64,000 nucleotides of DNA. Origin: an uncultured Prevotellaceae bacterium (lineage in GTDB: Bacteria; Bacteroidota; Bacteroidia; Bacteroidales; Muribaculaceae). The position numbers and the translations under genes are program-made. Every line of letters starts with the position of its first letter. The first letter of the stretch is position 1. The notes beneath the pieces were generated by a model, which did no database searches, was not told where the DNA came from, and worked only from the letters and a program-made list of their open reading frames with translations. The stretch is taken from the NCBI GenBank assembly GCA_900318335.1, contig ONKF01000007.1:28713-92712 (forward strand), read 5' to 3'. This document shows, one piece after another, positions 443 through 32,863 of this stretch.

Positions 443-2449
443 ATGAAGAGAGTTTTTTCACTATTTGCAATTTCCCTGCTGACCATGTCAGCATGGTCTG
501 CTAACACCTATGTGAAGGTGACCAGCATTGACCAACTGGAAGAAGGTACGAAGTACATCCTCGTCAATGAGGAAGCCAGCAGCGCCATGGGTGCGATCTC
601 CAGTACAAGTACCCCCTATGGTACCTCTGTCGCCGTTACCATCCAGAATGGTATTATCGACATCGAGGGTACTGATGTTGTTGAACTCTTCTCGGGAGAG
701 GGCAGCGATGACGTCCTTGGCAACCACACATGGACCTTTAACATTGGTGAAGGCAGCCACTACATGTGCTGGACTTCAGGCAATTCTTTGAACACGGTCA
801 ACTCCTCGGCCCCCGAAAATGCGATGTGGATTGCTACCTTGACCGACGACGGTGTCGTGCTGACCAACAAGGCCGACAACACCCGCAAGCTCCAGTACAA
901 TGCAGGTAGCCCCCGTTTTGCTTGCTACACCTCCAGCCAGAAGCCCGCTGTCCTCTATGTTGAGGATGCTAATGTTACGCCTCCCGTGACTGTTGCTGCA
1001 CCCACGCTGCCTGAATCTCAGGAGTTTGAAAACAGCCTCAGCGTAATCATCACCAACAATGAGGAAGGTGCCGACCTCATGTATGCCCTCAATGATGGCG
1101 AATTTACCGAATATACCGAGGCCCTCACTATCACCGAGACCACCACAGTTCGCGCCAAGGCTGTCAAGGGCGATGTCGAGAGTGAAGAAGTTACTGCTAC
1201 CTACACCAAGGTTGGGCCTGTTGTCTATATCAACCCATATGTGAAGGTGACGAGCATTGACCAGCTGGAAGTGGGCAAGAAGTACATCCTCGTCAATGAG
1301 GAAGCCAGCAGCGCCATGGGTGCGATTTCCAGTACCAGTACCCCCTACGGTACCTCTGTCGCCGTTACCATCAAGAATGGTATTATTGACATTGATGGTA
1401 CTGATGTAGTTGAGCTCTTCTCGGGAGAGGGCAGCGATGACGCCCTTGGCCACACCACATGGACCTTTAACATTGGTGAAGGCAGCCACTACATGTGCTG
1501 GACTTCAGGTAATTCTTTGAACACGGTCAACTCCTCGGCCCCCAACAATGCGATGTGGATCGCTACCTTGACCGACGACGGTGTCGTGCTGACCAACAAG
1601 GCCGACGACACCCGCAAGCTCCAGTACAATGCAGGCAGCCCCCGTTTTGCTTGCTACACCTCCAGCCAGAAGCCCGCTGCCCTCTATGTAGAGTATGTTT
1701 CCCAGGAGGACGAGGCCATCACCACCCTTAGCCAAGCCAACGCTCTGGAAGATGACGAGGAATTCACCTTCAACGGCGACGCTGTTGTTACCGCTTTCAA
1801 GAATGGCTACCTGTTCTTGCGCGACGAGAGCGGCTACGGTATGATTTCTGGCGTAGAAGGCACCTTTGCAAACAGTCAGGTGCTGAACCAGGGCTGGAAT
1901 GCCACTAAGACCAGCAACGACGGTTGGGTTTGGTACACCGATGCTGCAGGCCTAAGCACCAGCGATGAGACCAATGCCGAGCTGGCTGCAGCCCAGAAGC
2001 TCACCGCCTTCCCCGACGAGAGCATGATCAATGCCTATGTTTACGTCGAGAAGGTGAACAAGGGATTCTTGCCAATCCGCGTTTTGCCTCTGCGCGATGA
2101 CAACACTAGCATTACAATAGCCTCTTACCCATGGGCCGTGAATCAGCCCGCAACTAGCGGCGATTGGAATGCCTATGGTGTTATTGTCAAGAATGGTGGC
2201 ACATTGGAGTTCGCTCTTGTTGCTTGGGAGAAATATGTAGAGCCTCAGCCCGAGGGTTTGCGTGGTGACGTGAACATGGACGGGGCAGTGGACATCAAAG
2301 ACGTTACCCCCCTTATCGACTATCTGTTGAGTCAAGATCCCACTGGTATCAGCCCTGAGAATGCTGACTGCAACCTCGATGATAATGTTACCATCATCGA
2401 CCTTACCGCCCTCATCGACCGTCTGTTGAGTGGCAACTGGGCCGACTGA
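443..2449 (+). CDS. Secreted repeat protein with chitobiase-like linker, OB-like domain and C-terminal dockerin
   Basis: The protein has 668 residues. A signal peptide (residues 1-19, ending SAWS-A) precedes two nearly identical modules of about 152 residues (about 23-174 and 266-417). The linker between them (about 185-262, TTTVRAKAVKG) resembles the chitobiase/hexosaminidase C-terminal fold. Residues about 425-600 look like an OB-fold domain of the kind seen in Bacteroidales secreted proteins (EFTFNGDAVVTAF then YLFLRDESGYGMI). The last 62 residues are a type I dockerin-like pair of Ca-binding loops (GDVNMDGAVDIKD and DCNLDDNVTIID). No catalytic motif is recognised, so binding or scaffolding is more likely than catalysis. 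It is probably monocistronic, with its own promoter and a strong terminator. The function of the repeated module is unknown to me. Confidence 0.8.
   Translation: MKRVFSLFAISLLTMSAWSANTYVKVTSIDQLEEGTKYILVNEEASSAMGAISSTSTPYGTSVAVTIQNGIIDIEGTDVVELFSGEGSDDVLGNHTWTFNIGEGSHYMCWTSGNSLNTVNSSAPENAMWIATLTDDGVVLTNKADNTRKLQYNAGSPRFACYTSSQKPAVLYVEDANVTPPVTVAAPTLPESQEFENSLSVIITNNEEGADLMYALNDGEFTEYTEALTITETTTVRAKAVKGDVESEEVTATYTKVGPVVYINPYVKVTSIDQLEVGKKYILVNEEASSAMGAISSTSTPYGTSVAVTIKNGIIDIDGTDVVELFSGEGSDDALGHTTWTFNIGEGSHYMCWTSGNSLNTVNSSAPNNAMWIATLTDDGVVLTNKADDTRKLQYNAGSPRFACYTSSQKPAALYVEYVSQEDEAITTLSQANALEDDEEFTFNGDAVVTAFKNGYLFLRDESGYGMISGVEGTFANSQVLNQGWNATKTSNDGWVWYTDAAGLSTSDETNAELAAAQKLTAFPDESMINAYVYVEKVNKGFLPIRVLPLRDDNTSITIASYPWAVNQPATSGDWNAYGVIVKNGGTLEFALVAWEKYVEPQPEGLRGDVNMDGAVDIKDVTPLIDYLLSQDPTGISPENADCNLDDNVTIIDLTALIDRLLSGNWAD
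509..1693 (+). repeat. Direct 456-bp intragenic duplication (509-964 and 1238-1693)
   Basis: Two copies offset by exactly 729 bases (243 codons) within the dockerin protein gene are almost identical at the DNA level; long runs match even at third codon positions. The near-identity indicates recent duplication or ongoing gene conversion. Such copies can recombine and change the number of modules. Confidence 0.85.
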
Positions 2450-6781: not shown

Positions 6782-7804
6782 TCAACTGATTTTCCAACCA
6801 GGCTTGAAGAAAGGCTCCTGGGCGGTAAACCGCGGGGCATAGGTCTTGAGCAATGCTATCACGGGCCACATGATCAACATGGTCAACGTGAAGACTACCA
6901 AGGTCAAGCCGATGCCAGGTTCCATGCCACCGCGCAAGATAAGCCACGAACGGATGGGAAGAAATACCGTCATGTGAGTGCCCAGAATGATGAGCGAATA
7001 GCGTCCATAGTGGCACAGGACGGGAATGCGAGACAACGACTTGCAGGCCCAAAAGAGCGACAGGATGGCGACAAACGGCAACAGATAGAGTTTCCAATAG
7101 GGCGGCAACACCTGGAAATGCAGGTTCATGAACTCACTCAGGTAATAGATGGGCACTGCCACAGCAGCCAGCACAAGGATGCCCCACTTGTCGTGACGTG
7201 AGGGATTTAGAGCGCCCAAGCGCTTCATCCCCCACCCCAGCAGGAAGTAAGGCAACGCCACCATCGATGTATCGAGCATGAGCGGCAATTCCACCTTGTT
7301 GACACCCAGCCAATAGCCGCATAACGAGATCGCCAGCGTCGCTAAAACCAAGCCCCAGACAGGTTTAATCCAGCGCTGCAGGGCATAGAAAATGATATTA
7401 ACCCAGAACAGGCTCAGTAGGAACCATAGTGGTGTCGTCACCTGCCAGTAACGCAGGTAGAAAGGTTCAATGAGCTTGATGGGATTGATATCGATGGGTT
7501 GGGCTCCAATCATGAAACGCGCGGCATACTCCAGCAATTGCACACCATAGGCCAATATCACAAAGAAAACAAACGGCACAAGGATGTTATTGACCTTGCG
7601 CCGCGTGAAATCGGCAAAGCCGTCGTAGAGCTTAAAGAAAATGCCTGATATGAAGTAATACATGGGCAGGCGGAAGGCCTGCAAAGCGTTATTGAGATTG
7701 GGAGCTAAATAATTAAAAAACTCATGGTCAATATGGTACATCACGATGAGCATGATGCACAGGCATTTCATAAAATCGATGTAGGCAATGCGCTGTTGAG
7801 GCAT
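6782..7804 (-). CDS. Acyltransferase family 3 membrane protein (glycan O-acylation)
   Basis: This 340-residue polytopic protein has about ten hydrophobic helices. The N-terminus (RIAYIDFMKCLCIMLIVMYHIDH) carries the family signature, with Asp10 and a conserved His at the end of helix 1. Acyltransferase-3 (OafA/WecH-like) proteins add acetyl or other short acyl groups to sugars, usually from acyl-CoA. It directly follows the acyl carrier protein gene (38 bases away), so an acyl group delivered from a carrier protein should be considered. It is distinct from the second acyltransferase-3 at 25832. Confidence 0.85.
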   Translation of the reverse strand: MPQQRIAYIDFMKCLCIMLIVMYHIDHEFFNYLAPNLNNALQAFRLPMYYFISGIFFKLYDGFADFTRRKVNNILVPFVFFVILAYGVQLLEYAARFMIGAQPIDINPIKLIEPFYLRYWQVTTPLWFLLSLFWVNIIFYALQRWIKPVWGLVLATLAISLCGYWLGVNKVELPLMLDTSMVALPYFLLGWGMKRLGALNPSRHDKWGILVLAAVAVPIYYLSEFMNLHFQVLPPYWKLYLLPFVAILSLFWACKSLSRIPVLCHYGRYSLIILGTHMTVFLPIRSWLILRGGMEPGIGLTLVVFTLTMLIMWPVIALLKTYAPRFTAQEPFFKPGWKIS

Positions 7805-7842: not shown

Positions 7843-8070
7843 TTACTTCACCTTGGTCTCGAGCAGGGCAATCACGCGGGAGAAGTCGGTCATATCGGCA
7901 ATCTCCTCGGGTTCCAAGTCAATGTCAAAAGCCTCCTCGAGCTCGGATGCCAACGAGAGGTGATGCAACGAGTCCCAGCGCTCACAATTCTTCTGTGACG
8001 CGTCGGTCGTGACGTTTTCCATTTCAAACACCTCGCGCATGATTTCCAACACTTTATCTTCTAAGTTCAT
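7843..8070 (-). CDS. Acyl carrier protein (pathway-specific)
   Basis: At 75 residues it is a typical free-standing carrier protein. The phosphopantetheine attachment site is Ser34 in WDSLHHL, within an acidic four-helix fold. Its ATG overlaps the TGA of the FkbH-like gene (ATGA), a sign of translational coupling and a functional pair. FkbH-type enzymes load such carriers with a three-carbon unit. It is not the housekeeping fatty-acid ACP, whose motif is normally GADSLD. It is one of two carrier proteins in the locus (the other at 12183). Confidence 0.92.
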   Translation of the reverse strand: MNLEDKVLEIMREVFEMENVTTDASQKNCERWDSLHHLSLASELEEAFDIDLEPEEIADMTDFSRVIALLETKVK

Positions 8071-9662
8071 AACACTCTGATATTATAATAGTTCTTTATT
8101 TCAAACATATCGCTCAGCGCCATCGAGTAATGCTTGGCGCCCGCCTCATCTGTAGCCTCAAGGGTCATGCCCATGCGGTCATAGAAATCGGCAGTCTGGC
8201 CATTCTTGGCCGTAGGCAGATAATCGGCGGTGATGTGGCGGTAGCCATCCAGCCTCAACAGATTGAAAACGGTCTTGATGAATGCCTCTTCAATCCCCTT
8301 GCCCAGGATGCGGCAGCTGAGCAACAACGTGTCGATGTTGACAGTCGTGTCATCTGTCGGCTCCAGGAAAATCGTGGCAGTGATGCCGCTGTCACCAAAC
8401 CGGTCCCTCACACTCATGCAAAAAACGCGCCAACCCTGATCGAGGCGCTGTTGGACATCGGCCTCGGTATAGCGGCGAGTTGTGAGGTTAAACTGGTTAG
8501 TCTTCTGTGTCATCTGGGCGATGCGCGGCAGATTGTGTTCATCGGCAGGGATAATATCCAGTTGCATGTCCAGGCTGTAAAGATAGGACTCGAGGTCGGC
8601 AAAATGGGATTGCTCGGCCTGCCGCATTGCATTGGCCCGGTATTGCTCGGTCTTGGCCCGATCCTCGCTGGTCACGGCATAAATGCGGAAGTATTTCTCC
8701 ACCAGTTGCTTAAAGAACGGCATGAGTTCATAGGGCTTGGCAGGGAAATCAGGCACCTCGACCTGAGGGAGCACCTGCTTGATGAGTTCACGCTCGGTGG
8801 GGTTATCGTCAACAAAGACCATGCTGTCCAGACCGATGTTGAGTTCGCTGGCTATCTCGCGTATGTTGGTTGCCTTGTCCTGCCAATTGATGCGCAAAGC
8901 GCTGAAGTGCTCACGCTTGAGGACCATGAAAGGATTGTGTTGCCATGCCTCCTCGACATCGGGCTCGTTGTTCTTGCTGCAAACTGCCAGAATCACGCCA
9001 TTCTGTGCCAACTGGAGCAGGGAACGCTGCCAATAGGAAAAAGCCTTGCCTGGATAGTCGCCACCCAACTTGATGCCATCGACGCCATCCTCGCCAAGGA
9101 CACCGCCCCACAGGGTGTTATCCAAGTCAAGGATGAGACACTTCTTGCGTTGCAAGGCCAATTCACCCTCGATGCGTTGCCACCACGACTGGAAATCACG
9201 TGCCAACTTCGGGTTGAGCAAGGTCTGTGACATGAGATAATACTTCCAGTTGACCAGCGTATCGGCATCATATCTTGCAGTGAACTCCGAGAAGTCCACC
9301 CACTTGACGTTAGGCCATGAAGCAGCCAGTGCCGCAATATGGTCATTAAAGGCCGTAACAGCCTGTTGAACAGCTGTTTCGTCACCAGTGAGCCTCATGG
9401 GGAAAAGATTCACAAGCGAGAAAACGACAAACGGCTTACTGGCATCGGCAGCCGACAAAACGATATCCAGTTTGCTGCTATAGGACTCTATCTCCTGGGC
9501 TAACTGGGCGCTATCGGCATTAACGGGAACCTGATAGAACCAAATGTAACGGTCCACCTCGCCTGGCACCATACTGATGTCGTCATAACCCGAATAGGTC
9601 ATGCCATCATAGCCGAAAAAGGCCTCAACCGTTTGATTGCGAAAGACAAAAGTAGTCATCAT
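8067..9662 (-). CDS. FkbH-like HAD-IIIC family protein (acyl/glyceryl-carrier loading)
   Basis: About 531 residues from the ATG at 9662 (a second ATG follows at 9659). A longer frame to 9746 would overlap the upstream glycosyltransferase gene, so it is not used. The N-terminal 170 residues are a SGNH-like region. The HAD core has the motif DLDNTLWGG (nucleophile Asp178 and Asp180, counted from 9659), then CSKNNEPDVEEAW and VFVDDNPTERE. The C-terminal part (about 390-530) is GNAT-like (FGDSGITATIF, LLSCRILGKGIEEAF). FkbH-type proteins move a glyceryl group from 1,3-bisphosphoglycerate to a carrier protein; the GNAT-like end may transfer the acyl group onward. Coupled by a 4-base overlap to the carrier protein gene. 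Confidence 0.9.
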   Translation of the reverse strand: MMTTFVFRNQTVEAFFGYDGMTYSGYDDISMVPGEVDRYIWFYQVPVNADSAQLAQEIESYSSKLDIVLSAADASKPFVVFSLVNLFPMRLTGDETAVQQAVTAFNDHIAALAASWPNVKWVDFSEFTARYDADTLVNWKYYLMSQTLLNPKLARDFQSWWQRIEGELALQRKKCLILDLDNTLWGGVLGEDGVDGIKLGGDYPGKAFSYWQRSLLQLAQNGVILAVCSKNNEPDVEEAWQHNPFMVLKREHFSALRINWQDKATNIREIASELNIGLDSMVFVDDNPTERELIKQVLPQVEVPDFPAKPYELMPFFKQLVEKYFRIYAVTSEDRAKTEQYRANAMRQAEQSHFADLESYLYSLDMQLDIIPADEHNLPRIAQMTQKTNQFNLTTRRYTEADVQQRLDQGWRVFCMSVRDRFGDSGITATIFLEPTDDTTVNIDTLLLSCRILGKGIEEAFIKTVFNLLRLDGYRHITADYLPTAKNGQTADFYDRMGMTLEATDEAGAKHYSMALSDMFEIKNYYNIRVL

Positions 9663-9664
9663 TA

Positions 9665-10669
9665 TTACTTCTTTATCATGCGATAGAGTTTGCTCAACAT
9701 TGACCACAAACGGGGCTGCATCATCAAGCGGTGAATCACTTTCCACTTGGCACCACCGTAATTGGCCTCGGGTCCCACACAGGGGAAGGGATACATGCCC
9801 ACAGCACGCATCCGGTCCAGCACTTCATCAACCAGTCCTGCAGTAAAAGCCCGCGTCATCGCAAAAAAGAGATACACATTTCTCAATCCTGCCACACTGA
9901 CGGGTGCGGTCTGCTGAGCGTTTTCCTGGAACTGACGGATGGTTGCATCAATCGAGGCCGCAGAATCGACTTGACAGAACAGCCGGTGACGCACATGGTC
10001 AAGATTAGTGTTGTGCATCGCACTATCAGCGCGCTTGACGTAGCAGTAAGGGGCGGCATCATAGTGAGCCACACGAGAGGCCTGAAGCATGAACCGGGCA
10101 ATGACTTCGCCGTCCTCACACACGATGAGCGACGGGTTAAAACGCCAATGATGCTGCTCGAAAAACTCCCGGCGGATGAGGTAGCGCCAGATGTAGGGCG
10201 TCATGCTGTGACCCTTGAGGTACTCGACTCCCGTCATGGCTTCGGTCGAGGAGCTACTGGTTCCTGTTGCCACCGTCACTGTGCCATCGGGAAAGACCAT
10301 CCTGTTATTAAGCACCTGGACATCCAGGTCAAGATCCATAGCCCGTTGAACGATGTTGACCATCGACCCGCCCATCAGGTAATCATCGCTGTCCACAAAC
10401 TGAATGAAGCGCCCCCGGGCATTCTCAAGCGCCAGATTGCGGGCACTGCTCACTCCCGAATGGGGCTGACGGAGGACGCGCACCTGTGGGTGTTCCCGAG
10501 CAAAGGATTCAACCACGTCCAGGGTGCCGTCGGTTGACTCGTCGTCAACGGCAATAATCTCATATTGCTCAGGTGACAATCCTTGATCAACCAAGGATTG
10601 CAGGCACTTGAGCACATAAGGCTCAGTGTTATAGACAGGGACGATGTATGTCAGCAGGATCTCACTCAT
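9665..10669 (-). CDS. Glycosyltransferase family 2
   Basis: 334 residues from the ATG at 10669, which overlaps the upstream stop by one base (TGATG); the in-frame TTG at 10672 is less likely. The GT-A fold is indicated by TYIVPVYNTEPYVLKCLQSL at the N-terminus, AVDDESTDGT, and the metal-binding FVDSDDY. The C-terminal half is poorly conserved and gives no sugar specificity. It is cytoplasmic, adding a sugar from a nucleotide donor to the lipid-linked glycan. It sits between the VOC gene and the FkbH gene, so its acceptor or product may be the sugar that carries the unusual acyl group. Confidence 0.92.
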   Translation of the reverse strand: MSEILLTYIVPVYNTEPYVLKCLQSLVDQGLSPEQYEIIAVDDESTDGTLDVVESFAREHPQVRVLRQPHSGVSSARNLALENARGRFIQFVDSDDYLMGGSMVNIVQRAMDLDLDVQVLNNRMVFPDGTVTVATGTSSSSTEAMTGVEYLKGHSMTPYIWRYLIRREFFEQHHWRFNPSLIVCEDGEVIARFMLQASRVAHYDAAPYCYVKRADSAMHNTNLDHVRHRLFCQVDSAASIDATIRQFQENAQQTAPVSVAGLRNVYLFFAMTRAFTAGLVDEVLDRMRAVGMYPFPCVGPEANYGGAKWKVIHRLMMQPRLWSMLSKLYRMIKK

Positions 10670-11067
10670 CAAGTGGGATTCTCGACCAGTTCAATGAGGC
10701 CCGTATTCTTCTGGAAGAGGAAAGCCACACGCCTGTCCTGCATCGCACAGGCGGCAACAGGACCGCTCACCAGCAGAAAGCGCTGTCCACGCAGCATGGT
10801 GATTGCGGCTTCCATATCCTGAACTTTGTAGCAGATATGATAAGGAGAAACCCCCACAGCCGTGAGGGTGCGTAAAACGGGACTCTGATCATCGAGGGGT
10901 TCAAGCAATTCCAGCCGAGGCTCGCCTTCCTTCTCCAGGAAGCAGATACGCACATGCTGGACCGGGTCCTCGACAGTGGCCGTTGCTCTATAGCCCATCG
11001 TCAAGTAGAAGCCCTTGGTCTTCTCTATGTCACGGCAGGCTATGCCAATGTGGTCAAATGAGAGCAT
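10669..11067 (-). CDS. VOC (glyoxalase/epimerase-like) metalloenzyme
   Basis: 132 residues in two beta-alpha-beta-beta-beta units. The likely metal ligands are His6 (FDHIGIA), Glu in RLELLEP, His in PYHICYK and Glu in GLIELVEN, the arrangement of methylmalonyl-CoA epimerase and related VOC enzymes. It lies 15 bases after the KAS III gene and overlaps the following GT2 gene by one base, so all three are coupled. In this setting it could epimerise or isomerise a carrier-bound or CoA-bound acyl intermediate; the substrate is unknown. VOC members next to FkbH/ACP genes are seen in other glycan loci, as far as I recall. Confidence 0.85.
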   Translation of the reverse strand: MLSFDHIGIACRDIEKTKGFYLTMGYRATATVEDPVQHVRICFLEKEGEPRLELLEPLDDQSPVLRTLTAVGVSPYHICYKVQDMEAAITMLRGQRFLLVSGPVAACAMQDRRVAFLFQKNTGLIELVENPT

Positions 11068-11082
11068 GAAATATGTGGTTTC

Positions 11083-12132
11083 TTAATACTCAATGACGGG
11101 CGACACGTGGCAGTCGCGCATATTCATGATAGCCGACCCCCAACTCAAACCAGCGCCGAAGCCGCTCATGAGCACGAGATTGTCACCCGTGAGACGTCCA
11201 GCCAACTCGCTGGAGATGGTCAAGGGCACCGAGGCACTGCTGGTATTGCCGAACTTGTGGATGCAGTAAGGCACCTTGTCGGCAGAAATCTTGAGTTTCT
11301 TGACAAAGAAGTCCATCATGAAACGGTTAGCCTGGTGAAATACCAGGTAATCCAGGTCATCAACCGAGCGATCGGTCTCCTTGAGGAGCTGCTTCACACT
11401 CTTGGGCACCTTGCTGATGGCGAAATTGAAGACGTCCATACCGTCCATAAACACTTCAAGATCAGTGCGGATATTGCCATCCTCACGCTCTCGCTCGACA
11501 CAGGAGTCGGCGGTGATGGGATTGCGCATACCGGCATGAATCTTGAGGGTCTCCTCGCCGCTGCCATCGGTGTAGAGGGTGAAAGTCGAGTCACCATAGT
11601 CGCCCTTCTCGATGAGGGTAGCCGTCCCCGCGTCGCCATAGAGGGGCCAATCCACCTTGTCACGGCGGTTGACAATCTTGGAGAACGTCTCACCATCGAG
11701 GAGCAGCACGCGGTTCACGCCCTCCATCGAGGCATAGGCAAAAGCTGCGCTCAGGGCAAACAAGTAGCCCGAACAGCCTAATGAAATGTCAAAGCACAAC
11801 GTCTCGCGAGGCAGCCCAAGGCGGTGCTGCAACAGGCAAGACGTGGCAGGAATGCGGTAATCGGCCGTCTGGCTCATGAACAAGAGCACGTCGATGCTCT
11901 CGGGCTCGATATTGTTGTCGGCAAACAATTGCTGGGCGGCCTTGAAACACAAGTCGCTCGCGGTCACATCGGGGGCAGCAATGCGGCGCTGCTCGATACC
12001 GATGTTGTTGATTGTTTTCTCGATTTCCTCCTCGGGGATGAGATATCCCAAGTCCTTGTTATAAACTATTTCCTGAGGGACACAAGCCGACAGGGCCTTA
12101 ATGCCCACGCCATGATAGGTGATAGTTGCCAT
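11083..12132 (-). CDS. 3-oxoacyl-ACP synthase III-like ketosynthase (KAS III)
   Basis: 349 residues with the thiolase fold of FabH-type enzymes. The catalytic triad is intact: Cys120 in DISLGCSGY, His266 in VFHQANR and Asn296 in KFGNTSSA. Housekeeping FabH starts fatty acid synthesis from acetyl-CoA and malonyl-ACP. This copy sits between carrier protein and VOC genes inside a glycan locus, which points to a dedicated condensation or acyl transfer. Some KAS III relatives make ester or amide links instead of carbon-carbon bonds. It starts 51 bases after the carrier protein gene at 12183. Confidence 0.9.
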   Translation of the reverse strand: MATITYHGVGIKALSACVPQEIVYNKDLGYLIPEEEIEKTINNIGIEQRRIAAPDVTASDLCFKAAQQLFADNNIEPESIDVLLFMSQTADYRIPATSCLLQHRLGLPRETLCFDISLGCSGYLFALSAAFAYASMEGVNRVLLLDGETFSKIVNRRDKVDWPLYGDAGTATLIEKGDYGDSTFTLYTDGSGEETLKIHAGMRNPITADSCVEREREDGNIRTDLEVFMDGMDVFNFAISKVPKSVKQLLKETDRSVDDLDYLVFHQANRFMMDFFVKKLKISADKVPYCIHKFGNTSSASVPLTISSELAGRLTGDNLVLMSGFGAGLSWGSAIMNMRDCHVSPVIEY

Positions 12133-12182
12133 AAATTAAAAAGAAGTTGATTGCCAGGCGACTTTAAGTCAAGGTTATCACA

Positions 12183-12416
12183 TTACTCAACCCTCGACTT
12201 TACAATTTCATACAGATCCTCTACAGTATTGCTATTGCGTATGTCTTCTCCACGGAATTCCACATCATACTCCTCATCGACCATCGCAATGACCGACAAA
12301 GCAAGAAGGGATGACCATTCCTCCAACTCCTTGAACGCGGTTGTGGCGTTTATGGTATCTGGGTCTGTTTCGTCAAACAGATCTGAAAAATTCTCGATGA
12401 ATTGTTCTAAACTCAT
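12183..12416 (-). CDS. Second acyl carrier protein of the locus
   Basis: 77 residues, acidic, four predicted helices. The attachment serine is probably Ser36 in EWSSLLAL; the usual Asp before it is replaced by Ser35, so modification should be checked. It precedes the KAS III gene and is clearly diverged from the carrier at 7843. Two different carriers suggest two acyl units, or one loaded by FkbH and one elongated by KAS III. A gap of nearly 200 bases with a candidate -7 element separates it from the upstream acetyltransferase gene. Confidence 0.88.
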   Translation of the reverse strand: MSLEQFIENFSDLFDETDPDTINATTAFKELEEWSSLLALSVIAMVDEEYDVEFRGEDIRNSNTVEDLYEIVKSRVE

Positions 12417-12496
12417 ACTGTGTATTAATCTTGAATTAATTTGGATTTATTATTGCCTTAAAAACGAAAAAGTACATAAAGTATTTTAACGGGTGG

Positions 12497-12504
12497 CAAA
12501 ATTA
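12497..12504 (-). promoter_or_regulatory. Candidate -7 element of an internal promoter
   Basis: TAATTTTG on the minus strand fits TAnnTTTG and lies 81 bases before the carrier protein ATG at 12416. No good -33 TTTG is found at the right spacing. The intergenic stretch 12417-12609 is AT-rich and T-rich on the minus strand. It may separate a distal transcription unit (12416 to 2661). Confidence 0.35.
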
Positions 12505-12609
12505 CACAAAAAAACTCATAAACACCGCTTAATGAAAACTATTTATCGGCTAAATTCCTTCTTATTACTAAAAAAAACTAAAAAATAGCCTCTGAATGAC
12601 AAATATGCG

Positions 12610-13251
12610 TCAAAAATTAAACCGGCGTGCAGGAACACCCAGGTAGGTCTTGTTGTTGCTTGGACGCGTCATGAGCACGCTATTGGCACCCAAAGTCACT
12701 CCATGACCTATTGATATTCCCTGGAGCACAACACAAGCCACGCCGAGCATATTGTTGTCGCCGATGGTGACCCCACCCGAGAGATGGACTGCAGGCATGA
12801 TGCTGTTATAGCTGCCGATGTGATTATCGTGGCCCACAACGACATGGTCATTGATGAGGTTGAAATCACCCAGGGTGACATCACACGAAATCATGCAGTT
12901 ATTCTGGATGATGTTGCCCTTACCCATGATCACTGTCACTGGATCAACCAGAAACAGTGTCGGGTCAATCAGGTTGGGGAAAGTGACATTAGGGTTGGTT
13001 ATCGCTTTGCTGATGCGCTTAACGGCCTTGTTGTCACTGATGGCGATGGCCACAGCCAAGGGTTCATTGACCTGCGACAGCGAGTCCATGCCTCCAAGCA
13101 CCTTGCCATATCGTGAAACCGGCATACCTGCAGGTTTAGCATCATCATAAAAACCTATCAGTTCCCATTGTTGATGCTGTGCGTTTATTCTGGTAATGAG
13201 GCAGGCAACTTCCTTTCCGAAGCCTCCCGCACCGTATATTGCAATTTTCAT
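12610..13251 (-). CDS. PglD/NeuD-like sugar O/N-acyltransferase
   Basis: 213 residues. An N-terminal Rossmann-like PglD domain (AIYGAGGFGKEVACLI, then GFYDDAKPAG) is followed by a left-handed beta-helix of hexapeptide repeats (about 115-205: GNIIQNNC, VGHDNHIGSYN, ISIGHGVTLGANSVL). The family acetylates amino sugars such as UDP-4-amino-bacillosamine or sialic acid using acetyl-CoA. It lies directly after the PglE-like aminotransferase gene (39 bases), the usual pairing. It is a clear paralogue of the C-terminal half of the fusion protein at 15859. Confidence 0.88.
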   Translation of the reverse strand: MKIAIYGAGGFGKEVACLITRINAQHQQWELIGFYDDAKPAGMPVSRYGKVLGGMDSLSQVNEPLAVAIAISDNKAVKRISKAITNPNVTFPNLIDPTLFLVDPVTVIMGKGNIIQNNCMISCDVTLGDFNLINDHVVVGHDNHIGSYNSIMPAVHLSGGVTIGDNNMLGVACVVLQGISIGHGVTLGANSVLMTRPSNNKTYLGVPARRFNF

Positions 13252-13290
13252 GGTTTGACTCTTTTCACTAAATTAATATCCGGGTATAAC

Positions 13291-14430
13291 TCACTTGCAG
13301 CAAGCGATGATTTCACGTGCCACGAGTTCGACCTGTTCGTCGGTCACCCACGGTCCGCTAGGCAGACAGAGCCCCTTGGTGAACAGTTCTTCACTCACAC
13401 CGTTCACATAGGCGGGAGCGCCCGAGAAGACCGGCTGGGTGTGCATGGGTTTCCACAAGGGGCGGGACTCGATATTAGCTGCATCTAAGTGCTGGCGAAC
13501 GGTCTCATAGTCGGTGCCCGTCTTGGCGGGGTCGATAAGGATCGTGTTGAGCCAGTAATTGCTGTCGGAGCGCTCATCGTAGTTGACATGAACATCAATA
13601 CCGTCAACATTGGCAAAGAGCTCGACATATCGGTCACACAGATGTCTGTGGTGAGCCAAGTGCTCGTCGAGGATAGTCATCTGACCGCGACCAATGCCTG
13701 CACAGATGTTGCTCATGCGGTAGTTATAGCCAATCTCCTTGTGCAGATAGTAAGGCATGGGCTCGCGGGCCTGGGTTGCGTAGAACATGATTTTCTTCTT
13801 GGCCACCTCATCAGGGCAGATGAGCGCGCCACCTCCGCTGGTGGTAATCATCTTGTTGCCATTGAAGCTCATGATGCCGTATTCGCCAAACGTGCCACAC
13901 AGCTGACCACGATACCGTGACCCGAAGGCCTCGGCCGAATCCTCGATGACGGGAATCTCATAACGGCGGGCGATTTCCATGATATCATCTATCTTAGCTG
14001 GCATGCCGTAAAGATAGACCGGGATGATAGCCTTGGGCTTACGGCCGGTCTTGGCGATGCGGTCCTTGATGGCCTCCTCGAGCAGATTGGGATCCATATT
14101 CCAGGTATCGGGCTCGCTATCGACAAACACGGGTATACCGCCCTGATAGGTAATGGGATTAGCGCTTGCCGAGAACGTCATCGACTGACAGATGACCTCG
14201 TCATCACGACCGACGCCTAAATTTACGAGTGCCAAATGAATGGCTGCAGTACCCGAACTGAGCGCGACAACCTTCTTGTCCTCGCCACACAGCTGCTCCA
14301 GGTCCTCCTCAAAGGCGTTCACATTGGGGCCAAGAGGCACTACCCAGTTGGTGTCAAAAGCCTCTTGGATATACTTCATCTCCTGGCCACTCATGTGGGC
14401 GAGACATAATAAGATTCTATTGTTTGCCAT
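13291..14430 (-). CDS. DegT/DnrJ/EryC1 family sugar aminotransferase (PglE/LegC-like)
   Basis: 379 residues, PLP-dependent fold type I. Lys193 in SFNGNKMITTSGGG forms the internal aldimine; Asp164 in VIEDSAEAFGS contacts the pyridine nitrogen; SSGTAAIHLAL binds the phosphate. The family transaminates UDP-4-keto-6-deoxy-sugars. The start MANNRILLCLAHMSGQEMKYI is typical of the bacillosamine and legionaminic acid aminotransferases. With the PglD-like gene downstream and the PglC-like transferase upstream it suggests the first sugar is a diamino-trideoxyhexose. The expected PglF-like 4,6-dehydratase is not in the window. Confidence 0.9.
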   Translation of the reverse strand: MANNRILLCLAHMSGQEMKYIQEAFDTNWVVPLGPNVNAFEEDLEQLCGEDKKVVALSSGTAAIHLALVNLGVGRDDEVICQSMTFSASANPITYQGGIPVFVDSEPDTWNMDPNLLEEAIKDRIAKTGRKPKAIIPVYLYGMPAKIDDIMEIARRYEIPVIEDSAEAFGSRYRGQLCGTFGEYGIMSFNGNKMITTSGGGALICPDEVAKKKIMFYATQAREPMPYYLHKEIGYNYRMSNICAGIGRGQMTILDEHLAHHRHLCDRYVELFANVDGIDVHVNYDERSDSNYWLNTILIDPAKTGTDYETVRQHLDAANIESRPLWKPMHTQPVFSGAPAYVNGVSEELFTKGLCLPSGPWVTDEQVELVAREIIACCK

Positions 14431-14445
14431 AAAACTTATATATTG

Positions 14446-15030
14446 TTATAAAATTTCCATACTTTCTGGAGCATGACCCGGATAGACGGTGCGATGCTCG
14501 GCTAACTGCTTGATAAGTATCTCACTGCAGGCTGCCTGCTTTTTGTCGCAGTGAGGTAAATTGGTCACGGTCTTGACTCCCGGGATGTAACTGTCACCCG
14601 TAAACATCATGTCGTCGAGTACCCAAGTCACGCAGCATGGACTGTGCCCCGGCGTGAAAACGGCATGCACGCTCACGCCATCGAACAGTTCAAACACATC
14701 TCCGTCATGAAGTATTCTGATGTTATTAACGGGTTGTAATTGGAGAGTATTGCCGTAAAACTTTGAAAAATTCAACTTGTCGTCATACAAGGTCTCCAGG
14801 CCGTAGTCATTGGTATAGACGGGCACATCGGGACACAAGTTCAGCAGCTGATTGAGTCCATAGATGTGGTCAAAGTGGCCATGGGTGAGCAAGATACCGC
14901 ATAGGGGCCCCTTGATGTACGGCAAAATCTGATCCACATCGCCACAGTCCACGAGCCACGAGTGTCCTGCATGAGTCAGGATGTAGCTGCAAGAGCGGAA
15001 GATGGAATTGACGACCTGGTTGACTACCAC
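14446..15030 (-). CDS. MBL-fold metallo-hydrolase
   Basis: 194 residues with the metal motif HGHFDH (His50, His52, Asp54, His55), a third-ligand region TPGHSPCCV, Asp in MFTGDSYIPG, and a final His in VYPGHAPE. Glyoxalase-II-like enzymes of this size hydrolyse thioesters or lactones. Inside a locus with carrier proteins it could release or edit an acyl thioester; this is inference. It follows the SDR gene by 15 bases and precedes the aminotransferase gene by the same distance, so they are co-transcribed. Confidence 0.88.
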   Translation of the reverse strand: MVVNQVVNSIFRSCSYILTHAGHSWLVDCGDVDQILPYIKGPLCGILLTHGHFDHIYGLNQLLNLCPDVPVYTNDYGLETLYDDKLNFSKFYGNTLQLQPVNNIRILHDGDVFELFDGVSVHAVFTPGHSPCCVTWVLDDMMFTGDSYIPGVKTVTNLPHCDKKQAACSEILIKQLAEHRTVYPGHAPESMEIL

Positions 15031-15045
15031 CGATTGACGAGAATG

Positions 15046-15813
15046 TTATAATGAGAAGCCACCGTCAAGAACGAGATCATGTCCTGTCACCCAACTGGAA
15101 GCGTCACTCAACAGATAGATGGCCGCATTAGCCACATCGCTGGGTTCGCCATAACGGCCCAGGGGATAGCCCTTAGCATCCTCGGCCAGTTGCTCCTCGG
15201 TTATTGTGCCGTTGTGAATGAGCGGGGTATCGACCATGCCAGGGCAAATGCTGTTGACACGGATCATGCGGGTGGCATACTCGCGAGCCGCATATCTCAT
15301 AACAGAGTTCAACGCAGCTTTGGACGCGCCATACACTCCGTTGCCCGGCATGAAAGTGTGGGTGCCACCTACCGAGGCGATCAAAACGACCGAAGCGCCC
15401 TTGACGAGCACTTTCTTCTTGTACATCAGCCGCAGCAACTCAACGGGCGCAAAAAAGTTGATGTCAAACATGCTATCAAACTTTTCGCGCGTACCGAACT
15501 GCAAGGGCAGGGTTATTGAATTGCCGGCACACAGCACTGCACCGTCCAACTTGGGCAATTCGCTCACAATGTGCTCGACGTCCTGCTGAACAGTCATGTC
15601 GGCAATCAACTGCAAGTGCCCCTCGACCTCGGGATTGAGTTGGTCAAAAGTTGCCTGTAAGCGTTCCTGGTTTCGGGCAGTGATGACCACCTTAGCGCCC
15701 ATGCGGGAACAGGTAATGGCGGTTTCCTTGCCTATACCCGAAGATGCGCCAGTCACCAGGATTGTTTTACCGGCCAGTGTAAAAGGATTATATTCCATCA
15801 TATTGATATTCAA
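15046..15813 (-). CDS. Short-chain dehydrogenase/reductase
   Basis: 255 residues, classical SDR. The cofactor motif is TGASSGIG (21-28). The catalytic residues are Ser147, Tyr161 and Lys165 (YGASK). The C-terminal [14 protein letters not shown] is typical. The sequence is closest in style to FabG-like 3-oxoacyl reductases, so reduction of the KAS III product is plausible, although a sugar ketone is equally possible. Starts at Met5 or Met6 are possible alternatives. It lies between the fused acetyltransferase and the MBL gene. Confidence 0.9.
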
Positions 15814-15858
15814 ATTATTCTTTGTGGTAAACGGCCCACGTAATCTGGGCTCGTCTTG

Positions 15859-17133
15859 TTATTCAAAATCGAATCTCTTAGCAGGCACTCCGATATAGGT
15901 GTGTCCATCCTTGGGCTTGGTCATGAGCACACTGCCAGCACCGAGGGTAACGTTGTTTCCAACCTTGATCTTCTGTAAGATGACGCTGTCAACACCGAAC
16001 AAGTTGCAACAGCCCACCTCAACCGCACCGGACAGGCGCACGGCAGGCATGAGGACATTGAAATCCCCCACCACCACATCATGGCCCAGGACATTGGAAC
16101 CGTTCAATACGTTGAAATCGCCCACAGTAACGTCACACGTGGCGCTGCAGCCCTCCTGAATGATGTTGCCGTGGCCAATCTTGAATGTCTTGGGGTCCAA
16201 AATCCTGAATGACGGAGCAATCAGGTTCGGGAAGTAAATATTCGGGTTCGTAATACGGCTATGGATAAGAGAACGCACACTGGGATCGCCCACAGCAATC
16301 GCCAGCGCCAACGGTTTATCAACTGAATTGAGTTCTTCCATTCCGCCTAAAACGTGCCCATAATGAGAGACCTCGGTACCAGCCGTTTTATTGTCATCGT
16401 AGAAGCCGATAAATTCCCATCTCTCTTTTCCGAATTTGTTGATTTTTTCGATACCACCAGCAACTTCTCGGCCCAAACCGCCTGCACCATAAACAGCAAT
16501 CTGATTAGGCACAACCGATGTGATGTCACTATAGGACGAGATGTCGCCTTGCCTGGGTTTGATACGGCAGGGGTTGCCATAGGCAACAGCCCCATCTGGC
16601 ACGTCATGGACGACAACGCTGCCTGCACCGACAATACTCCATCGGCCGATTCTGACACCAGGTATCACGACAGCCGCAGCACCAATCCATGCCCCCTCTC
16701 CCACGTGCACATTACCACACAAGGTGGCCTGTGGGGAAATGTGGGCAAAGTCCTCCACGACGCATTCATGATCCACCGAAGCTCCTGTATTGAGAATACA
16801 ATGCGAGCCGATCACTACCCCACTCTGGATAATCGCACCCTGCATCACTACAGTGCCCCTACCCATCCTGACGCTGGGCGATATGATGGCTGACGGATGA
16901 CGGAGCGTTGCAAAATCACAATTCTGCAGCTTGTCGACAATCTGTTTGCGAGCGAGATTGTTACCGATACTGATGACGACCGGAGATTCGCCGTTCCAGT
17001 GATGCTTGACCGGTATAGACAACAATTCGTTGATGGAGTCATCGTCATCAAACAATGCATCCACCTTGATATTCATCGATTTAAGAATATCAATAATTAC
17101 CTTTGCGTGTCCGCTTGCTCCGTATAGATACAT
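15859..17133 (-). CDS. Fusion of two PglD/NeuD-like acyltransferase modules
   Basis: 424 residues made of two complete modules. Module 1 (about 1-200) has YLYGASGHAKVIID, a short N-terminal domain and a beta-helix ending VAYGNPCRI. Module 2 (about 212-424) starts again with IAVYGAGGLGREVAGGI and ends IGVPAKRFDFE. Module 2 resembles the separate protein at 12610 very closely (ITNPN-FPNLI, GNIIQ, VLMTKP/VLMTRP), whereas module 1 is more like classical PglD. Single-module proteins of this family are about 200-215 residues. The gene begins 5 bases after the PglC-like gene stop. Two modules in one chain may act on two amino groups of one sugar or form an internal trimer scaffold; this is untested. 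Confidence 0.88.
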   Translation of the reverse strand: MYLYGASGHAKVIIDILKSMNIKVDALFDDDDSINELLSIPVKHHWNGESPVVISIGNNLARKQIVDKLQNCDFATLRHPSAIISPSVRMGRGTVVMQGAIIQSGVVIGSHCILNTGASVDHECVVEDFAHISPQATLCGNVHVGEGAWIGAAAVVIPGVRIGRWSIVGAGSVVVHDVPDGAVAYGNPCRIKPRQGDISSYSDITSVVPNQIAVYGAGGLGREVAGGIEKINKFGKERWEFIGFYDDNKTAGTEVSHYGHVLGGMEELNSVDKPLALAIAVGDPSVRSLIHSRITNPNIYFPNLIAPSFRILDPKTFKIGHGNIIQEGCSATCDVTVGDFNVLNGSNVLGHDVVVGDFNVLMPAVRLSGAVEVGCCNLFGVDSVILQKIKVGNNVTLGAGSVLMTKPKDGHTYIGVPAKRFDFE

Positions 17134-17138
17134 AATGC

Positions 17139-17753
17139 TTAGTTATTTCCGTTAAATGCTTCCATTGTTGCTTGACCGTCCTGGGATATGCCATCGCGGA
17201 CAATCACTTTCTTGATTGTGGTGAGAATCACCTCGACATCGGTCTTGAAACTGCAGTGGTCAACATACCACACATCGAGTTTGAACTTCTCGCCCCATGA
17301 CAATGTGTTGCGGCCATGACATTGGGCCCATCCCGAGATACCTGGCCTCACCTCGTGGCGACGAGCCTGCTCTGGAGAGTACAAGGGCAGATACTGCACT
17401 AACAAAGGCCTGGGGCCAATGATGGCCATGTCTCCCTTAAGTACATTGAAAAGCTGAGGCAACTCATCGATACTGGTTGAGCGGACAAAGCGCCCCACCG
17501 GGGTCAACCGCTCACCATCAGGCAAAAGCTCACCCGACGCATCGCGCTCGTCGGTCATTGTCTTATATTTAATGATTTTGAAAATCTTGCCGTTCTTGCC
17601 AGGGCGCTCCTGGAAAAAGAATGCGCCAGCACCCTTGTTAGCAAAGTGGAGCCAAATGGTCACCACCAGCAATAATGGCGACAGACAAATGATGGCGATG
17701 AGGGAGATACAGAATCCCAACACACGCTTAACACAGTCGCGATAGATTCTCAT
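17139..17753 (-). CDS. Initiating sugar-1-phosphate transferase (PglC-like monotopic phosphoglycosyltransferase)
   Basis: 204 residues. One re-entrant hydrophobic helix (about 9-35), then the family motifs: FFFQERPGKNGKIF, IIKYKTM, the Asp-Glu catalytic pair in STSIDELPQLFNVLKGDM, and IGPRPLL...YSPEQARRHEVRPGISGWAQ. The enzyme moves a sugar-1-phosphate from UDP-sugar to undecaprenyl phosphate at the inner membrane, the first step of repeat-unit assembly. The short length matches PglC rather than WbaP. Neighbouring PglD- and PglE-like genes support a bacillosamine-type first sugar. Confidence 0.93.
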   Translation of the reverse strand: MRIYRDCVKRVLGFCISLIAIICLSPLLLVVTIWLHFANKGAGAFFFQERPGKNGKIFKIIKYKTMTDERDASGELLPDGERLTPVGRFVRSTSIDELPQLFNVLKGDMAIIGPRPLLVQYLPLYSPEQARRHEVRPGISGWAQCHGRNTLSWGEKFKLDVWYVDHCSFKTDVEVILTTIKKVIVRDGISQDGQATMEAFNGNN

Positions 17754-17827: not shown

Positions 17828-18208
17828 TTATTTCATGAAATTAAATAGGCGCTTGATTTTCATCGGTTTTTCTCCAAAGTTTACGAGTAGAGCCAAATCA
17901 AATCCAGTTGTTTTAAGATAGTTCAAAACTTGAGCTTCATGAATATCTGTTAATTCAGATACAGCCTTTAACTCAACAATAATCTTTTCATAACACACAA
18001 AATCTGCAATATATTCTTGCTTAAGAGTTTTTCCTCTATAATTAATATTCAATCTGACCTCTCTTTGATATGGAATTCCCGCCTCTTGAAACTCAAGTTC
18101 TTATGCTTCTTGATATACCTTTTCAAGATAGCCATTGCCCAATTCAGAGAATACAGCTTTCATGCATCCTCTAATGGCGTAAGTTTCATTTTGGTAAATA
18201 TACTCCAT
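17828..18208 (-). pseudogene. GxxExxY family gene with an in-frame stop codon
   Basis: The intact frame 17828-18052 encodes 74 residues (KTLKQEYIADFVCYEKIIVELKA...), the C-terminal part of the GxxExxY family. The missing N-terminal part continues upstream in the same frame to an ATG at 18208 (MEYIYQNETYAIRGCMKAV, then ELGNGYLEKVYQEA). It is broken only by one TAA codon at 18091-18093, where Leu (TTA) would fit. With that codon restored the length is about 126 residues, the normal size. So a single nonsense mutation has inactivated it, or the downstream ATG at 18052 makes a short product. The family has no firmly proven function and often occurs inside polysaccharide loci. Confidence 0.8.
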
Positions 18209-19857: not shown

Positions 19858-20772
19858 TTATTGCACAAACTGAACCTTCCGAATATAATGGCGTCTTCTT
19901 TCCTCTACCGATGGCACTCTTTGCCAATTGCCATAAGTCATTTCTAGATGAGACTCAGCATCATGTGGTAAAAGCACCTCAACATCTTCAAACAAACCAA
20001 CTCGTGCAGGAAATAGCATACATTCTGGGATTGGTTTCCATTTATATGTACATAATAAGTCTGAAACGAAACCAGTGTACACATTATTTCGACAAAAACG
20101 GTCAACTATATTCATCCATGTTTGAAAGCTCATAAACGAGAAACTAAAACCTATGAATTGCCTTAACCAATAATTGATTTTTGATGACATGGAATAATTC
20201 ATTATCGCATGGTAATTTTCATTGTTCAACTCATATTGTCGCACAGAAGCGCCGACATACATGAATATCATCGATAATAATCTTTTAATAGTATTTTTTA
20301 TCTTTTCAGATGGATTTAAAGAATCTAGCGGAAAAATATCTACAAATATTCCTTGAGAATGATCATCATTATCGTCTTCGTCAGCTTCAATAAACTTTGT
20401 TCGAGTGTCTACAACTTTTGCGAATCTTGTTAATGCTTTATTTTTAGAATTTGGAGCATACACTTGTAGATACTCAGGAAGATCACTAGAGTAATGATTA
20501 ATAAATAAATCATAGTCTTTCCTAGGCATGAATAAATCCATATCGTCATCCCATGGTATGAACCCAGCATGTCTTATAGCTCCTAAAACAGAACCATAAG
20601 CGAGCATTACTGTCAAATTATTCTTAAGACACACGACTTCAATTTCTTTATACATCCACAACAAATGACGTTGTAATTTCTGTCGCTCCTCATCAGTTAA
20701 CACGTGTAAATCATATTTATTCTGACAAGCTTTCTGGTATAAATCCCTTGTTTTAATTATATTAATTATCAT
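19858..20772 (-). CDS. LicD family phosphotransferase
   Basis: 304 residues. The nucleotidyltransferase-like core is clear: LAYGSVLGAIRHAGFIPWDDDMDLFMPRKDY (Gly60-Ser61, Asp75-Asp79), followed by FVDIFPLD. LicD enzymes transfer phosphocholine or another phospho-alcohol from a CDP-linked donor to a surface glycan. Related fukutin-type enzymes transfer ribitol phosphate. The donor could be made by the kinase/nucleotidyltransferase group at 29056-31750. The gene overlaps the preceding GT2 gene by 11 bases. Its base composition is visibly AT-richer than the distal half of the locus, which suggests a separate origin. Confidence 0.9.
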   Translation of the reverse strand: MIINIIKTRDLYQKACQNKYDLHVLTDEERQKLQRHLLWMYKEIEVVCLKNNLTVMLAYGSVLGAIRHAGFIPWDDDMDLFMPRKDYDLFINHYSSDLPEYLQVYAPNSKNKALTRFAKVVDTRTKFIEADEDDNDDHSQGIFVDIFPLDSLNPSEKIKNTIKRLLSMIFMYVGASVRQYELNNENYHAIMNYSMSSKINYWLRQFIGFSFSFMSFQTWMNIVDRFCRNNVYTGFVSDLLCTYKWKPIPECMLFPARVGLFEDVEVLLPHDAESHLEMTYGNWQRVPSVEERRRHYIRKVQFVQ

Positions 20773-32846: not shown

Positions 32847-32863
32847 AGTGCTATTCCTGAAAG

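Follow-up and report, generated by a model that had tools for sequence, protein, structure and literature searches.

The window analysed here is a stretch of 64,000 nucleotides from an uncultured Prevotellaceae bacterium (assembly GCA_900318335.1, contig ONKF01000007.1, positions 28,713-92,712 of the forward strand). Its minus strand carries a long surface-glycan locus, in which genes for a carrier-protein acyl pathway lie among genes for amino-sugar synthesis. Twelve co-directional genes occupy positions 7843-17753. In the direction of transcription, from 17753 to 6782, the order is PglC, a double PglD fusion (PglDD), a short-chain dehydrogenase/reductase (SDR), a metallo-beta-lactamase-fold (MBL) hydrolase, a DegT aminotransferase, PglD, an acyl carrier protein (ACP2), a beta-ketoacyl-ACP synthase (KAS) III named KAS3, a VOC-fold enzyme, the glycosyltransferase GT2, FkbH, a further carrier (ACP1) and AcylT3. 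An initial annotation of positions 7843-15813 had named two ACPs, FkbH, KAS III, SDR, MBL, VOC, glycosyltransferase, aminotransferase and acetyltransferase genes; all of them are present on the minus strand, with family support. The unit exceeds that range, for PglDD and PglC (to 17753) and AcylT3 (6782-7804) belong to it. The overlapping starts and stops reported earlier are four-base overlaps, ACP1/FkbH at 8067-8070 and GT2/VOC at 10669-10672. The genes described below are on the minus strand unless otherwise indicated.

FkbH (8067-9659) encodes a HAD-IIIC/GNAT protein that is proposed to load glyceryl from 1,3-bisphosphoglycerate. It passes TIGR01686 over residues 172-501 (E 5.9e-89; 298.4 bits, cut-off 146.65). 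Residues D178, D180, D284 and C449, conserved in 103 of 103 homologues, are presumably the HAD aspartates and the C-terminal cysteine of FkbH. A Pfam search misses the GNAT half; for the AlphaFold model (mean pLDDT 87.3, pTM 0.54), the closest solved structure is 3slr (E 7.7e-23), the phosphatase part of Bacteroides fragilis BF1531, and the next structure matches are GNAT folds such as 2r7h, so that the predicted fold supports both halves. Alignment corrected the start from GTG 9746, given in the table of open reading frames (ORFs), to ATG 9659, and therefore FkbH does not overlap GT2. ACP1 (7843-8070), the carrier adjoining FkbH, is the proposed glyceryl carrier, and ACP2 (12183-12416) the proposed malonyl/elongation carrier. 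Both are weakly recognised by family models and keep the serine motif: ACP1, with W-D-S-L, has no Pfam match at E<=0.001 and sub-cut-off NCBIfam carrier matches (best 3.7e-6), and ACP2, with W-S-S-L, is barely over the PF00550 cut-off (E 8.3e-5; 23.2 against 20.8 bits).

KAS3 (11083-12132) encodes a putative glyceryl-primed condensing enzyme. It passes the Pfam models PF08541 and PF08545 and misses the NCBIfam FabH subfamily cut-offs, one of them narrowly (248.1 against 249 bits; 219.1 against 292.1 bits). The intact Cys-His-Asn triad described in the initial annotation was located at C120, H266 and N296. The FabG-like SDR (15046-15798; PF13561, 1.1e-55) is the proposed beta-ketoreductase, and its start codon, assigned by inference, is probably near 15798. 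The VOC-fold metalloenzyme (10669-11067; PF13669, 3e-22) is proposed to be an alpha-carbon epimerase for a carrier-bound acyl group. It scores 66.8 bits against the methylmalonyl-CoA-epimerase model TIGR03081, under the cut-off of 114.95, and keeps H6, E53, H77 and E126, which we take to be the H-E-H-E metal ligands of the VOC fold, in 28 of 28 homologues.

On the sugar side, PglD (12610-13251) encodes a PglD/NeuD-type sugar N-acyltransferase (TIGR03570, 2.3e-46; 158 bits, just under the cut-off of 160.8; PDB 4m98 and VioB 7txp). PglDD (15859-17133) holds two complete PglD-type acyltransferases in one protein, with PF17836 and TIGR03570 each matching in two stretches (TIGR03570, 363.5 bits). 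DegT (13291-14430; PF01041, 3.6e-92) encodes a LegC/PglE-like aminotransferase: its best NCBIfam model is the LegC family, under the cut-off (367 against 420 bits), and its matches PDB 1o61 and 4ztc are presumably PglE. With the LegC cut-off missed, its sugar substrate is a prediction. PglC (17139-17753; PF02397, 7.2e-58) encodes a PglC-like polyprenyl-phosphate sugar-phosphate transferase. A PglF homologue is encoded in another part of the genome (L201; its best PDB match is WlaL, E 2.3e-80), and homologues of PglF, PglE and PglD are thus all present, as the UDP-QuiNAc4N (bacillosamine-type) route requires.

The conservation of these genes was followed around FkbH. A named-genome scan with an FkbH alignment gave at least 553 relatives, of which the best 80 were kept. 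In a sample of 393 Bacteroidales genomes, FkbH was found at E<=1e-20 in 32, four of them above 470 bits, and 22 of the 33 non-window matches were fetched with their flanks (L032, L033, L101-L120). Together with the window these make 103 FkbH loci, which split into a short type (27 loci, profile score above 600) and a long type (76 loci, below 460). In 22 of the 27 short-type loci, all three of KAS3, ACP1 and ACP2 are found no more than 6 kb from FkbH, the opposite of the scattering of homologues that the initial annotation had named as evidence against a dedicated pathway; among the long-type loci a KAS3 match near FkbH occurs in two of 76, both weak (27% and 25% identity). The set ACP2-SDR-KAS3-(VOC)-FkbH-ACP1 recurs in 22 loci including the window, mostly in Bacteroidota: the hosts include rumen Prevotellaceae, other Bacteroidales, Chryseobacterium jejuense, a Bergeyella, a Verrucomicrobia metagenome-assembled genome and an archaeon-filed contig. 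The same set in 22 loci is more than chance, and a chance assembly of genes is rejected by these conserved clusters together with the single KAS3 clade described below. FkbH is absent from all five same-family genomes in the Bacteroidales sample, which fits horizontal spread. No close relative came out of the plasmid searches, whose 75 and 85 records were all below 60% identity.

Within the 22 clusters, ACP1 adjoins FkbH in every case and VOC is present in 17. SDR is matched by profile in 16; in the other six, L121-L126, the gene falls on or past the end of the retrieved stretch, and in L122 and L125 its tail can be made out by eye. PglD-profile matches occur within 8 kb in 17 clusters, of which 16 have one gene above 60 bits and the window two; the sole match of L133 is weak (62 bits), and the stretches of L121-L126 end before the position that PglDD has in the window. 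ORFs of L130, L131 and L135 resemble hexapeptide transferases by eye, and some clusters seem to use acyltransferases other than PglD. At the attachment serine of ACP2, 18 of the 22 clusters have W-S-S-L or W-S-S-F in place of the usual D-S-L; of the other four, one has W-D-S-L and three match neither pattern.

The KAS3 proteins of these clusters form a group of their own. In a quick maximum-likelihood tree of 80 KAS III proteins, without bootstrap and with identical KAS3 proteins counted once, the 22 FkbH-linked proteins are set apart from all the rest by a single branch (SH-aLRT 95), and FkbH linkage requires one change on the tree, against a shuffled mean of 19.6. All of them are at least 54% identical to that of the window; the other 58 tree rows reach 48% at most, and L134_5968, which is an additional KAS3 close to FkbH (40% identical), was classed with the others. 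The Cys-His-Asn triad is kept in 22 of 22 FkbH-linked and 56 of 56 other aligned KAS3 proteins, in a residue comparison that leaves out the distant KAS of L184 and L160. The FkbH-linked clade was not seen without FkbH in the sample. Among 40 KAS3-anchored regions (L032-L071), mostly top-scoring with a few lower and not a random draw, L032 and L033 hold FkbH; of the remaining 38, ACP and SDR genes lie within 3.5 kb in 32 and a PglD-type gene within 8 kb in 11, and a VOC gene was found in none. Related KAS3 genes with ACP and SDR and without FkbH are therefore common in Bacteroidales.

Distance correlations point to the same unit. In a Mantel rerun with 2000 permutations, from which the six near copies L121-L126 were dropped, FkbH distances correlated with those of VOC (r 0.77, 11 loci), KAS3 (0.49, 16 loci), ACP1 (0.44, 16 loci), ACP2 (0.44, 16 loci; 25 of 2000 permutations as high) and SDR (0.41, 16 loci). 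They were uncorrelated with those of PglD (r 0.21, 11 loci; 429 of 2000 permutations as high) and DegT (r 0.13, 7 loci; 573 of 2000); for PglC the correlation was 0.71, over six loci only. The acyl genes move together, while PglD and DegT do not.

The VOC gene is linked to KAS3 as well. The KAS3 proteins of the five VOC-less clusters group in a single subclade (support 99), and KAS3 proteins with and without VOC differ consistently at five positions, corresponding to E. coli FabH L75, F87, A118, L142 and F157. We take F157 to be a pocket residue of FabH; counting it, three of the five fixed differences would map to substrate-pocket positions. For the other two, position 87 of FabH sets substrate preference and Leu142 lines the PqsD channel, according to the accessible text of PMC3734052. 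The chance of at least three pocket positions among five is 0.0003 with 12 of 349 positions in the pocket and 0.003 with 24, where the pocket size is a guess, the test was picked after the positions were known and the five positions stem from one branch.

In the sample anchored on FkbH or KAS3, 27 of 28 VOC matches have FkbH on their own strand at a distance of no more than 1.43 kb. When the 393 genomes were searched with VOC as the anchor, 195 gave a match at E<=1e-8, five of them above 90 bits. Three of these five adjoin FkbH (the window, G123 and G266) and two do not: at L235 (7171-9107) and L237 (7428-10279), VOC lies beside a DltA/amino-acid-adenylating enzyme and an ACP-like gene, the ACP of L235 being a weak 28-bit profile match, among neighbours that look like glycan genes. 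With these two loci, the idea that VOC belongs to FkbH only was rejected. Five weaker matches were inspected. L236 lies by an AMP-ligase-like gene, judged by eye; at L240 there are two ACP-like genes, both on the opposite strand; L241 resembles an ordinary methylmalonyl-CoA epimerase, judged by its neighbours; and L238 and L239 have no carrier-loading neighbour. What the VOC loci share may be a carrier protein loaded with an acyl group that is substituted at the alpha-carbon; L235 and L237 suggest that VOC could have a general role on amino-acyl and hydroxy-acyl groups bound to carriers. Abstraction of a proton adjacent to a thioester, as in methylmalonyl-CoA epimerase-like chemistry, would fit the epimerisation of such a carrier-bound acyl group.

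The gene set, its conservation as a unit, the single KAS3 clade, the VOC-linked changes in KAS3 and the conserved catalytic residues are direct observations, and they support the proposal of the initial annotation that a dedicated carrier-protein acyl pathway is coupled to amino-sugar genes. The reaction steps that we build on them are predictions. FkbH, as expected from its family, would use 1,3-bisphosphoglycerate to place D-glyceryl on ACP1. VOC may then invert the alpha-carbon of the carrier-bound glyceryl, as its methylmalonyl-CoA-epimerase-like family, its gene context and its co-variation with KAS3 suggest. KAS3, with its intact triad and tight linkage, would condense the glyceryl starter with malonyl-ACP2, and SDR would reduce the beta-keto group; one glyceryl and one malonyl unit with a single reduction would give 3,4,5-trihydroxypentanoyl-ACP2. 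By homology, UDP-QuiNAc4N would be made by the PglE-like DegT together with the PglF homologue L201, a PglD-type enzyme would move the acyl group onto this UDP-QuiNAc4N-type sugar, and PglC would place the sugar on the lipid carrier. As a whole, a mobile, glyceryl-primed acyl cassette that decorates the 4-amino sugar of a surface glycan is our tentative reading, to which we give somewhat less than an even chance. Its wider form is doubtful: there VOC would be a carrier-level alpha-carbon epimerase that also serves amino-acyl carriers in other glycan loci, and a glycerate-primed KAS III would lead to a trihydroxypentanoyl amide, with stereochemistry differing between clusters with and without VOC.

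Several observations weigh against the glyceryl-primed reading. The correlation between KAS3 and ACP2 distances is weak (0.30), and the limits given above for the tree and for the pocket test apply. FabH CoA-site residues are altered in KAS3 proteins without FkbH too, and therefore these changes are no pointer to a glyceryl-ACP starter. Five short-type FkbH loci lack KAS3 (L101, L137, L138, L139 and L143), one of which, L139, has VOC. The window holds three PglD-type domains, so that two different acyl groups are possible. In the flagellin locus of Campylobacter jejuni, fkbH (cj1302) lies with cj1301, annotated as an epimerase, and the FabH2 gene cj1303, and the product is an unextended di-O-methylglyceroyl amino sugar, according to the accessible text of PMC7099621, PMC3068675 and PMC3229698; FkbH beside KAS III therefore need not mean extension. 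A different division of labour is conceivable, in which FkbH, VOC and ACP1 would supply a glyceroyl group, ACP2, KAS3 and SDR would make 3-hydroxybutyryl from acetyl-CoA, and separate PglD units would attach them. The occurrence of KAS3 with ACP and SDR without FkbH (32 of 38 loci) and of FkbH with ACP1 without KAS3 (5 of 27 short-type loci) agrees with this, as do PglD and the double PglD in the window and the unextended glyceroyl-type group of C. jejuni. However, the KAS3 proteins linked to FkbH make up a single clade, of which no member in the sample was found apart from FkbH; their pocket positions vary with the presence of VOC, and 16 of the 17 clusters with a PglD-profile match within 8 kb have one such gene above 60 bits; we consider two separate groups unlikely.

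KAS3 might also act as a shuttle, passing glyceryl on from ACP1 to either ACP2 or the sugar with no extension of the chain, SDR acting on the sugar or elsewhere. The neighbouring gene numbers of fkbH, the annotated epimerase and FabH2 in C. jejuni, with a C3 acyl product, would agree with such a role. KAS III-type acyltransferases are known, but those tend to lose the Asn, and the condensing triad is kept in all 22 KAS3 proteins; moreover, SDR stands beside KAS III in the FkbH-free cassettes too, as a ketoreductase would. A shuttle thus appears distinctly improbable. The glycerate-utilisation operon of tetronates, with FkbH, an ACP and a FabH-like protein in the accessible text of PMC7489565, raises the case that KAS3 joins glyceryl-ACP1 with a beta-ketoacyl group into a tetronate ring on the glycan. 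This is very improbable: in family scans of the locus no protein was named as Agg4-like, Agg5-like or a polyketide synthase, and a ketoreductase would be expected to remove the keto group that the ring needs. Least probable is a hydroxymalonyl-ACP1 made by FkbH as the extender of KAS3, by a route of methoxymalonyl type. FkbH and an ACP are common to that route and VOC resembles methylmalonyl-CoA epimerase, but the route needs two dehydrogenases, plus a methyltransferase for methoxymalonyl. Of the 16 clusters with an SDR-profile match, 15 have one SDR, the exception being L134 with more than one, and scans of the locus proteins of the window revealed no methyltransferase. A methoxymalonyl or methoxy product was rejected for the window on the same two grounds, one SDR and no methyltransferase in the locus scans. 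Of the acyl types in the initial annotation, a hydroxy-acyl group fits, and a methoxy-like one is unsupported because no methyltransferase was found among the proteins scanned at 6782-33865.

GT2 (9665-10672; PF00535, 1.4e-29) encodes a family 2 glycosyltransferase inserted in the acyl operon, and among the 22 clusters it stands between VOC and FkbH in the window and L121-L126 only. AcylT3 (6782-7804; PF01757, 1.7e-29) encodes a membrane acyltransferase (Acyl_transf_3) and closes the unit at its 3' end; it is matched in L122-L126 (71-76%), with no match in L121. The MBL-fold hydrolase (14446-15030; PF00753, 4.4e-15; PDB 7l0b, 1.9e-13) is hydroxyacylglutathione-hydrolase-like. Found in 8 of 22 clusters only, it was rejected as a core part; it is accessory, perhaps for thioester clean-up. 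Between SDR and MBL, at about 0.3-4.5 kb in each locus (L123 being cut short), L121-L126, the closest relatives, hold an extra block absent from the window, with a second ACP2-like carrier, another ACP and a KAS III (35-37%); in L122 and L125 an AMP-ligase and an ATP-grasp-like protein were also read by eye. The cluster of L132 is on a contig filed under Candidatus Methanofastidiosia, which is likely misbinned, or else the cluster was transferred.

An AT-rich gap of 193 bases upstream of ACP2 contains TAATTTTG at 12504-12497, 88 bases before the gene, which presumably resembles the -7 element of Bacteroidota promoters. In L121, L122, L123, L125 and L126, a TAnnTTTG with the same flanks precedes ACP2 by 53-55 bases; for L124 no judgement was possible, since an ORF start cuts its stretch. 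This suggests that the part from ACP2 to AcylT3 has its own promoter. No good -33 element was seen, scans for sigma-70 promoters and terminators gave no excess over shuffles, and an Rfam scan of the window found tRNA only. Beyond PglC in the numbering, a 74-residue ORF (17828-18052) looks like the tail of a GxxExxY-type protein. The same glycan locus holds a LicD-family protein (19858-20772) and a polysaccharide pyruvyl transferase (31776-32867), and from these two genes the glycan may also bear a phospho-substituent and pyruvate. A leucine-rich-repeat protein of 1482 residues (34543-38991, plus strand) lies beside the locus. Dockerin_1 domains occur in this Bacteroidales genome, in the protein at 443-2449 (plus strand) and at the C terminus of a subtilase at 43432-46596 (minus strand).

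Acyl groups on surface amino sugars help to set the antigen type of bacteria, yet for the less common of these groups most enzyme assignments come from homology. A cassette that is conserved, and for which starter, extender, reductase and epimerase can be predicted, makes this a testable pathway. If the glyceryl-primed reading is true, central glycolysis, through 1,3-bisphosphoglycerate, would be tied directly to glycan decoration, and a carrier-protein epimerase would be defined, which current family models put close to glyoxalase or methylmalonyl-CoA epimerase. PDB 2qh0 and 3hdp (methylmalonyl-CoA epimerase / glyoxalase I) belong by sequence to the same family as VOC of the window, which differs from methylmalonyl-CoA epimerases in being under the TIGR03081 cut-off and beside carrier-loading genes. 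The initial annotation did not recognise the full combination from a described pathway, which holds only in part. The gene combination and its likely product appear to be new, whereas the general idea is known and the parts have published precedents, each half being in print in the accessible texts of PMC6519341, PMC7489565, PMC7099621 and PMC3068675. For FkbH in a polysaccharide context our search found only PMC7099621, with subscription papers largely outside it, and the combination may already be published.

Campylobacter jejuni offers one comparison. Strain 12664, which lacks cj1302, and strain 12661, which lacks cj1301, are both without di-O-methylglyceroyl in the accessible text, among three strains that have other gene differences. 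These strains support a role of FkbH, and possibly of an epimerase, in glyceroyl supply for sugars. The likeness of cj1301-cj1303 to the window genes is drawn from published annotation only. Two acp genes are presumably also present in that flagellin locus. Unlike the product proposed for the window, the C. jejuni acyl group is, as described there, C3 and methylated, and the sugar is pseudaminic acid. A plasmid of Parabacteroides distasonis (NZ_OY725812.1) has ACP, KAS III and SDR in a glycan locus, like the window, but neither FkbH nor VOC is among the 14 features annotated in that stretch, where an AMP-binding enzyme is present.

The closest precedents are two. For the O-polysaccharide of Flavobacterium psychrophilum, the accessible text of PMC6519341 places 3,5-dihydroxyhexanoyl on N4 of Qui2NAc4N by nuclear magnetic resonance, assigns wfpC-wfpG (ACP, two KAS, ketoreductase, PglD homologue) to this group by homology, and reports that the R-group genes affected lipopolysaccharide antigenicity. 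Like this R1 pathway, the locus of the window holds an ACP, a KAS, a ketoreductase and a PglD homologue; the R1 pathway differs in its two KAS genes, and its starter is presumably acetyl. The comparison is by description and not by aligned sequences; 'FkbH' does not occur in the main text of PMC6519341, where a VOC gene was not looked for. The tetronate glycerate-utilisation operon has an FkbH-like enzyme, a stand-alone ACP and a FabH-like enzyme that uses glyceryl-ACP (PMC7489565, accessible text), and, also compared by description, it serves a polyketide synthase and carries Agg4/Agg5-type genes. The cassette of the window differs from it in lying among sugar genes, with SDR and VOC genes, and family scans of its locus proteins named no Agg4-like or Agg5-like gene; the methoxymalonyl-ACP gene set does not fit either, with one SDR and no methyltransferase in the locus scans. 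Given the F. psychrophilum precedent and that of FkbH with glyceryl-ACP, the simplest reading would be a glyceryl-primed version of the same pathway. By this analogy, the cassette may work like the R-group synthesis of F. psychrophilum combined with the glyceryl loading of tetronate/FK520-type pathways.

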